Positions 17,262 through 22,541 of a stretch of 64,000 nt of DNA are shown in pieces; position 1 is the first letter of the stretch; each line of letters starts with the position of its first letter. The stretch covers positions 1 through 64,000 of the forward strand of contig DATGHU010000005.1 in NCBI GenBank assembly GCA_035307765.1. Reading direction: 5' to 3'. Under the pieces are notes generated by a model, which had not been told where the DNA came from, made no database searches, and was given only the letters and a program-made list of their open reading frames with translations. Source of the DNA: a bacterium. GTDB taxonomy: Bacteria > Sysuimicrobiota > Sysuimicrobiia > Sysuimicrobiales > Segetimicrobiaceae. The position numbers were made by a program, and so were the translations under genes.

Positions 17262-17447
17262 CGACCTTTACCCGCACGCTCTGTCGGTCATCGATGCGGT
17301 CCCGGGGGGGAGTCGAGGCGCATCGCCGTGCCGTCGGCATGCCCGTCGACCTGCGGATCGCAGGCCGGTGCGCCCGCGGGGGATCCGAAGCATGCCCGGA
17401 AGAGGACCTTGTGTGCACCCAGACAGCTCCATCCGGAGGTGAGGGGT

Positions 17448-18044
17448 ATGGCGTTTATCGAGACGATTCCGCCGGAAGAAGCCACCGGCGCGCTTGCGCA
17501 AGTCTACGAGGGCGATCTCAAGAGCACAGGCGCGGTGGCCAACCACACCCGGGCGCTCAGCCTCCGGCCGGACGTCACGACGGCATGGCGCGCCCTCAGC
17601 ATGGCCGTCCGCGCCCACATCGATCCCCGCCGGTATGAACTGATCACCACCGTCGTTGCCGCCCGTTTGCGGTGCAGTTACTGAACGCTCGCTCACGGAG
17701 CGGTGCTCCGTGGACAGTTCTTCCAGCAGGGAGAGGTGGAAGCCATCGTTCGGGATTACCGGCACGCCGGGCTGGCCGCCGCGGACGTCGCCATGCTCGC
17801 GTTCGCGGAAAAGGTCACGCTGCACGCTTACAGGGTGACGCAAGCGGATGTGGATGAACTGCGGGGCCACGGCTTCGCCGACGCCGAGATCCTCGACATT
17901 ATCCTGGCGGCTGCGGCCCGGAACTTCTACAGCCGGGTGGTCGATGCGGTGGGCGCCGTGCCCGATCCGGAATACCTCGACCTCGAGGCGGGCCTGCGGC
18001 TGGCGCTGGCGGTCGGGCGCCCATTTGGGGAGCCGGCCGTATAG
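17448..18044 (+). CDS. AhpD-like/carboxymuconolactone decarboxylase-family peroxidase, candidate selenoprotein (in-frame UGA, CxxU)
   Basis: One continuous reading frame of 199 codons is interrupted only by TGA at 17682-17684 (codon 79). The UGA falls exactly where the AhpD family has the second cysteine of E-x11-C-x2-C-x3-H. Here the residues are E64, C76, codon 79 and H83, with flanks ARLRCSY and TLAHGAVLR. The downstream half (about 119 codons) stays in the same frame and looks like the normal C-terminal half of uncharacterised peroxidase-related proteins. A hairpin with a GGU loop follows the UGA at a distance suited to a bacterial SECIS. GGAGGTGA at 17434-17441 supports the ATG at 17448. 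The likely role is thiol- or selenol-dependent reduction of hydroperoxides in the cytosol. The alternative is a nonsense pseudogene. Selenocysteine machinery genes were not found in this window. Confidence 0.75.
17691..17715 (+). promoter_or_regulatory. Candidate bacterial SECIS element
   Basis: Directly after the in-frame UGA (17682-17684), CACGGAGC (17694-17701) pairs perfectly with GCTCCGTG (17705-17712), closing a three-base GGU loop. A U-G pair (17693/17713) and, beyond one mismatch, a G-C pair (17691/17715) extend it. The loop begins 18 bases past the UGA. Known bacterial SECIS elements lie within the coding region, with an apical loop containing G in its first positions about 16-37 bases downstream of the UGA, and this fits. 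Confidence 0.65.
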
Positions 18045-21711: not shown

Positions 21712-22541
21712 CACAGCGGCACCATCGTCCTGACACGGCCGGCGAAAGTGGCCACCTCCGTGTACCCGGCCTCCCTCGCCGCGGCCGCGGCCCGGTCGAA
21801 ATCCCTGCCCACGTCCTCGGGCAGGTGGGCATCTGAGTTGATCAGCGTGGGGACCCCCGCCCGACGGCAGGCGCGCAGGAACGCCGGCGCCGGGTAGATC
21901 TCCCCCACCGGTTTGCGCCACCCCGCGGTGTTGATCTCGGCACAGACCCCGGCGCGGGCAAACGCCAGCGCGGCGGCCTCATAGAGTTCCGAGATGTCCA
22001 CCTTCGGCCGGTAGCCGAACACCTTGATCACGTCCGCGTGCCCAATGACGTCGAAGCAACCGGTCTCGGCCGCCCGCGCGATGATGCGAAAGTACTGCCG
22101 ATAGGCGTCGTGGACGTCCCGGCGCTCCCACTCGCCGACCAGGTCCGGATTGTCGAACCCCCACCACTCGCCGCCCCGATCCTGCGGGGGCAGCCAGTGC
22201 ACGGAGCCGATCGTGTAATCCCACGGGTAGGCGCGGATCGCGCGCTCGAGCGCGGCCTCGAACCCCGGAATGTAGTCCCACTCCAGCGCCACCCGGACCG
22301 GCAGCCCGGCGCCGCGCGCCTGCTCGATCAGCCGGAGGTACGTGTCCAGGGACTCGGTGTTGCGCTCGTCCACCCAGGAAAGGGAGGCGGGGTAAATGGC
22401 GCGGCACTCGCGGAACCGGTGCGGGTGCTCGCTGAAGCCGATCTCGCGGAGCCCCCGCTCCTGTGCGATCGTTACGAACCGCTCCAGCCACTCCAGGGTC
22501 CACGGCCCCCGCTCCAGGTGCATGTGGTAATCGGTGCTCAT
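21711..22541 (-). CDS. PHP-domain phosphatase (histidinol-phosphatase-like)
   Basis: A 276-residue metal-dependent phosphoesterase of the PHP superfamily. Metal ligands visible include DYHMH at the N terminus, SEHPHRF near 36, GSVHW near 118, GHADVIK near 169 and NSDAH near 240. These are the four classical PHP motifs and match monofunctional histidinol-phosphate phosphatases (HisK type). No other histidine-biosynthesis gene is nearby, so the substrate may differ. It is coupled to the downstream methyltransferase. Confidence 0.82.
   Translation of the reverse strand: MSTDYHMHLERGPWTLEWLERFVTIAQERGLREIGFSEHPHRFRECRAIYPASLSWVDERNTESLDTYLRLIEQARGAGLPVRVALEWDYIPGFEAALERAIRAYPWDYTIGSVHWLPPQDRGGEWWGFDNPDLVGEWERRDVHDAYRQYFRIIARAAETGCFDVIGHADVIKVFGYRPKVDISELYEAAALAFARAGVCAEINTAGWRKPVGEIYPAPAFLRACRRAGVPTLINSDAHLPEDVGRDFDRAAAAAREAGYTEVATFAGRVRTMVPL

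Follow-up and report, generated by a model that had tools for sequence, protein, structure and literature searches.

Question and reading proposed

The gene at 17448-18044 (+ strand) of the window, by which we mean the whole 64,000-nucleotide stretch of DNA analysed here, carries one TGA within an otherwise open frame, which raises the question of whether that UGA is a stop, a lesion or a selenocysteine (Sec) codon. An earlier note on this DNA had favoured Sec in an AhpD-like peroxidase, pointing to the open frame, to a strong hairpin 3' of the UGA, to the low odds of a random nonsense mutation and to UGA serving as an ordinary stop in neighbouring nuo genes. It proposed a search for selA, selB, selD and tRNA-Sec, a bacterial SECIS check and an alignment of homologues, and held that a genome without selA/selB/selC, or close relatives with the same stop and decayed downstream sequence, would speak against Sec. 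Our analysis indicates that UGA 17682 very probably specifies selenocysteine, at catalytic residue 79 of this AhpD-like gene, with sequence-level support coming from the conserved in-frame UGA, the presence of Sec machinery, a hairpin constrained at the RNA level, the protein family and the fold.

Gene structure and neighbourhood

The frame begins at ATG 17448, eight bases 3' of a predicted GGAGG ribosome-binding site (17435-17439, + strand), ends at TAG 18042-18044 and would encode a 198-aa protein whose codon 79 (17682-17684, + strand) is the only in-frame TGA. The Sec read-through translation, ...RRYELITTVVAARLRCSYU79TLAHGAVLR..., contains the pattern E64-x11-C76-x2-U79-x3-H83, formed by the relay glutamate (17637-17639, + strand), the first active-site cysteine (17673-17675, + strand), the predicted Sec at the second active-site cysteine position and the relay histidine (17694-17696, + strand), whose codon also lies within the SECIS stem; the placement of the UGA at the second Cys of an E-x11-CxxC-x3-H motif is confirmed. 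Third-position GC is 0.81 5' and 0.82 3' of the TGA, giving both halves a coding look, and sequence and composition agree with the earlier claim that the frame is open on both sides. Because nuoA, B, C, D and F in the window all end in UGA (nuoE ends in TAG), UGA is a normal stop here, as had been claimed. Standard gene calling would truncate the product at residue 78 and overlook the catalytic Sec. A crude filter on third-position GC and stem length for other TGA-interrupted frames in the window returned nothing and missed the 17448-18044 gene itself. Elsewhere in the window, ARAGORN calls a 94-nt tRNA-Gly (gcc) at 22244-22337 (- strand), which is without Rfam support and probably false.

On the + strand the gene has no companion; it is transcribed divergently from the nuo operon and convergently with a class-V aminotransferase gene (cysteine-desulfurase-like). 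Among the relatives examined, orthologues lie apart from both the nuo genes and the aminotransferase, which is why we dropped the idea of functional ties with complex I or the class-V aminotransferase. The only neighbour seen beside more than one of the orthologues examined is a luciferase-like monooxygenase, which accompanies two, and neither ahpC nor another redox-partner operon occurs among their immediate neighbours. Since no conserved neighbourhood was seen, the assignment of function rests on family and active site.

Protein family and predicted fold

The read-through protein scores 35.7 bits against Pfam CMD PF02627 (gathering cut-off 23) and, over residues 11-175, 96.4 bits against NCBIfam TIGR01926 (peroxidase-related enzyme; curated cut-off 81.8), and it contains the AhpD-type active-site pattern E-x11-C-x2-C/U-x3-H. 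It falls below the cut-offs of NF041238 (AhpD_rel_CFYUT; 51.8 against 175) and NF053654 (GroundWater_YciW; 29.2 against 310). A profile search with eight orthologues matched D. radiodurans AhpD 6k40 and the peroxidase-related structures 2oyo, 2pfx, 3c1l and 2prr. The AlphaFold model (pLDDT 90.7) is all-helical with an AhpD-core fold, and it superposes on those five structures at a TM of about 0.75-0.83, on the debrominase Bmp8 (6ohi) at about 0.70 and on M. tuberculosis AhpD at only about 0.45-0.5. The protein is a member of TIGR01926, the peroxidase-related branch of the CMD/AhpD superfamily, rather than AhpD proper, so that the original label of AhpD-like peroxidase holds for the superfamily and not for AhpD itself.

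Selenocysteine machinery of the host genome

The gene belongs to a 3.82-Mb metagenome-assembled genome (MAG) of an uncultured bacterium, 96% complete and 1.5% contaminated, and all four components sought are present in it. Contig C13 holds a tRNA-Sec with a UCA anticodon (C13:88379-88468; 72.1 bits, cut-off 47), selB (C13:91072-92943; 333 bits together with its neighbour in the frame, cut-off 242) and selA (C13:93049-94164, running to the contig end; 502 bits, cut-off 268), and selD lies at C34:292205-293125 (393 bits, cut-off 125). None is missing, where their absence had been named as evidence against Sec. An in-frame TGA is also present in selD (...VACAGUASKLS...), making it another selenoprotein gene, and a second CMD-family gene with an in-frame TGA (CPFU) at C34:377175-377423 (L110:1309-1917, - strand) has a SECIS-like 7-bp stem with a GGGC loop 3' of the TGA, bringing the genome to at least three selenoprotein genes including selD. 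Given this machinery, the TGA in selD and the second TGA-containing CMD-family gene, we regard Sec use as a settled, established trait of this genome. An N-terminal selA piece also sits at the start of another contig (C50:3-365); it resembles the C13 selA with an overlap that is not identical, and is either a second, partial selA or a product of strain mixture.

Hairpin 3' of the UGA

A bacterial SECIS-like hairpin occupies 17693-17713 (+ strand), with stem TCACGGAGC / GCUCCGUGG and loop GGU at 17702-17704. The published bSECIS criteria call for a loop of 3-9 nt with a G in its first two positions, a stem of 4-16 bp, a distance of 16-37 nt from the UGA and a minimum free energy of at most -7.5 (PMC13188914), and the SECIS check proposed for this site gave agreement on all four, the structure having a GGU loop, 9 bp (one of them G-U), a 17-nt gap from UGA to loop and a folding energy of -15.8 to -17 kcal/mol. 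Taken singly, the hairpin is only modestly unusual and nothing exceptional for a GC-rich gene: its folding z is -1.64, 16 of 200 shuffles fold equally well or better, a stem as long arises in 84 of 5000 synonymous recodings, and one as long follows 24 of 1868 codons in neighbouring genes. The GGU-loop hairpin of the earlier argument is therefore real, and by these figures weaker on its own than had been claimed.

The comparative evidence is of another order. Across codons +4 to +9 (CAC GGA GCG GTG CTC CGT), the commonest codon has a mean share of 0.96 in 13 Sec rows of the alignment versus 0.58 at other conserved codons, and in 14 Cys rows the same six codons give 0.58 versus 0.55 elsewhere. 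Because only synonymous choice was counted, protein conservation is excluded as the cause, and RNA-level constraint can explain why these hairpin codons are frozen in the Sec forms. Across 14 Sec rows no change is seen in the G that opens the loop or in the U two positions further on, and the stem is maintained among them through two compensatory pairs plus two G-U changes, a small number because the stem sequence is almost invariant. In L039 and L041 the loop has four bases, GGUC, and their pairs are therefore undercounted in the seven-pair register. In the distant Sec rows L030, L036 and L037 the hairpin was not found at the same place. Mean folding energies of Sec and Cys forms overlap (-12.9 versus -11.1), so energy alone was discarded as proof and as a Sec/Cys discriminator, and codon conservation was used. 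Unlike the fold of the single sequence, the conservation of the hairpin among relatives is what we take as decisive comparative evidence, far beyond chance.

Selenocysteine and cysteine forms among relatives

A TGA occupies the same codon in seven other genomes of the order, at 47-83% identity and in frames that are otherwise open, with none of the downstream decay in close relatives that would have spoken against Sec. All seven order-mates have selB over cut-off, and six of them have tRNA-Sec matches that we count as strong, at 65 bits or above; the seventh, G040, is 85% complete. No selB match over cut-off was found in the MAG of L056, and this absence and that of tRNA-Sec in G040 could be assembly gaps. 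In the other four genomes searched from the same genus, two of them 64-68% complete, no orthologue was found. One same-genus genome in which no orthologue was found (G001) has two selB and two tRNA-Sec matches over cut-off (C34, C11).

Scanning 84,980 species genomes turned up 61 relatives, among which TGA occurs in four 'Armatimonadetes'-labelled MAGs (matching four of the order-mates) and four Chloroflexota MAGs, and TGC or TGT in nearly all of the rest, including Bacteroidota, Actinomycetota, Pseudomonadota and Thermaceae, so that the proposed alignment does reveal Cys/Sec exchange at codon 79. The viral contigs searched held no relative of the gene. Matches to selB over cut-off occur in three of four Chloroflexota Sec hosts and in four of the 14 Cys hosts tested. 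On a quick tree of 76 rows with long branches, the Sec/Cys label needs at least six changes, and exact counts of gain and loss are unsafe on such a tree; a single Sec origin among the sampled rows was rejected by an AU test on the same quick tree. Most of L063, L066-L069 and L071-L105 have serine in place of the first active-site Cys and keep the second (SxxC), and are apparently one-Cys versions; L026 has SxxU.

The codon is TGC in L053 (L053:5001-5585), a Cys row whose host is a selB-bearing Chloroflexota MAG, yet the tree places it amid Sec rows and it retains CATGGGGCGGTCCTCCGT, a half-decayed form of the hairpin. It looks like a possible recent change from Sec to Cys, judged from one sequence and with the direction read from its placement and hairpin. 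Genes for TusA and DsrE are found immediately 5' of the L053 gene. We would tentatively suggest, at somewhat less than even odds, that the 'Armatimonadetes'-labelled order has long possessed Sec-containing TIGR01926 peroxidases, in common with Chloroflexota, and that conversion to Cys has happened on more than one occasion, with the decaying SECIS of L053 as a remnant. If so, the family would be a good model for how uncultured bacteria lose Sec. The Cys/Sec pairs, together with hairpin codons frozen in the Sec forms, offer a clean comparative set for Sec gain and loss.

Alternative readings of the UGA

A pseudogene could have arisen by nonsense mutation or sequencing error, since a TGC or TGT codon is one base from TGA and Cys is common at this position in homologues. 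That account is most improbable when the same TGA recurs, in frames that are otherwise open, both in seven order-mates (identity as low as 47%) and in Chloroflexota, when the codons 3' of it are conserved at the RNA level and when the genome carries Sec machinery; the earlier view that a random nonsense mutation is unlikely gains weight from this conservation in independent genomes. No more credible is a true stop that leaves two half-proteins, an upstream ORF of 118 aa and a restart at GTG 17703. An ORF with a GTG start does span 17703-18044, but the split would fall between C76 and H83 and break up the catalytic helix pair, Cys homologues are single uninterrupted proteins of comparable length, and a ribosome-binding site is not evident in the sequence 5' of 17703. 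Still less probable is a UGA reassigned genome-wide (e.g. to Trp or Gly) or read by a non-Sec suppressor tRNA, for although the frame would be open with any residue at the UGA, five nuo genes in the same window terminate with it, the position aligns with the Cys of homologues, and the genome has a proper tRNA-Sec and SelB.

The alternative that deserves more room accepts the selenoprotein and gives it another redox role, as an AhpD-fold oxidoreductase such as a Trx-like adaptor or a Bmp8-like reductive dehalogenase. The match of the model to Bmp8, the lack of ahpC or a redox-partner operon beside the orthologues, and the fact that several of the closest solved structures are named uncharacterized all lean this way, but the closest structures are peroxidase-related AhpD-core proteins and the AhpD relay residues E, C, C/U and H (PMC3141380) are retained, and we consider such a role possible, if unlikely. 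A peroxidase role appears the likeliest for the Sec protein on the strength of its family and active site.

Predicted mechanism

In the selenocysteine reading, SelB carrying Sec-tRNA(UCA) would bind the GGU-loop hairpin just 3' of UGA 17682, and selenocysteine would be inserted at residue 79; with too little selenium the product would end at 78 residues. In the folded protein Sec79 is predicted to take the place of M. tuberculosis AhpD Cys133, beside C76, E64 and H83, where it may act as the nucleophile attacking peroxide or another electrophilic substrate. C76 would then resolve Sec79 to a selenenylsulfide, which some thiol donor would presumably reduce.

Comparison with known systems

A relative resembling a Sec-to-Cys reversion with a half-decayed SECIS, here L053, is apparently unreported. 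No report of Sec use in the 'Armatimonadetes'-labelled lineage was found, and because the literature coverage was partial and lineage names vary, the evidence is weak that such use is, as it appears to be, new. This host lineage is what separates the present gene from the CxxU forms of PMC13188914 and PMC1088965, for which the literature searched has no such host.

Among structures, the protein shares its fold and a nearly full-length sequence match with D. radiodurans AhpD 6k40 and with 2oyo, 2pfx, 2prr and 3c1l, whereas 6k40 and 2oyo, the two chains compared by residue, have Cys and not Sec at the position. The proton relay residues of M. tuberculosis AhpD, Glu118, Cys130, Cys133 and His137 (PMC3141380), have the same spacing as E64, C76, U79 and H83, but the overall structural match to that protein is weak and its catalytic helix pair lies near the C-terminus. 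NF041238 (AhpD-related (seleno)protein, CFYUT) and NF053654 (YciW-related) are likewise CMD/AhpD relatives that match over most of the protein, yet with scores far under both cut-offs it is a member of neither. As the earlier note had stated, AhpD-like CxxU selenoproteins are known in bacteria: COG2128 forms were described in 2005 (PMC1088965), and a TIGR01926 form is in the table of PMC13188914, which our gene resembles in scoring above the cut-off of the same family model, in its CxxU and in its downstream bSECIS hairpin. Since that TIGR01926 CxxU form had already been recorded, the kind of selenoprotein is a known one; the gene brings Sec use in an uncultured lineage into view and leaves the general picture of bacterial selenoproteins unaltered.
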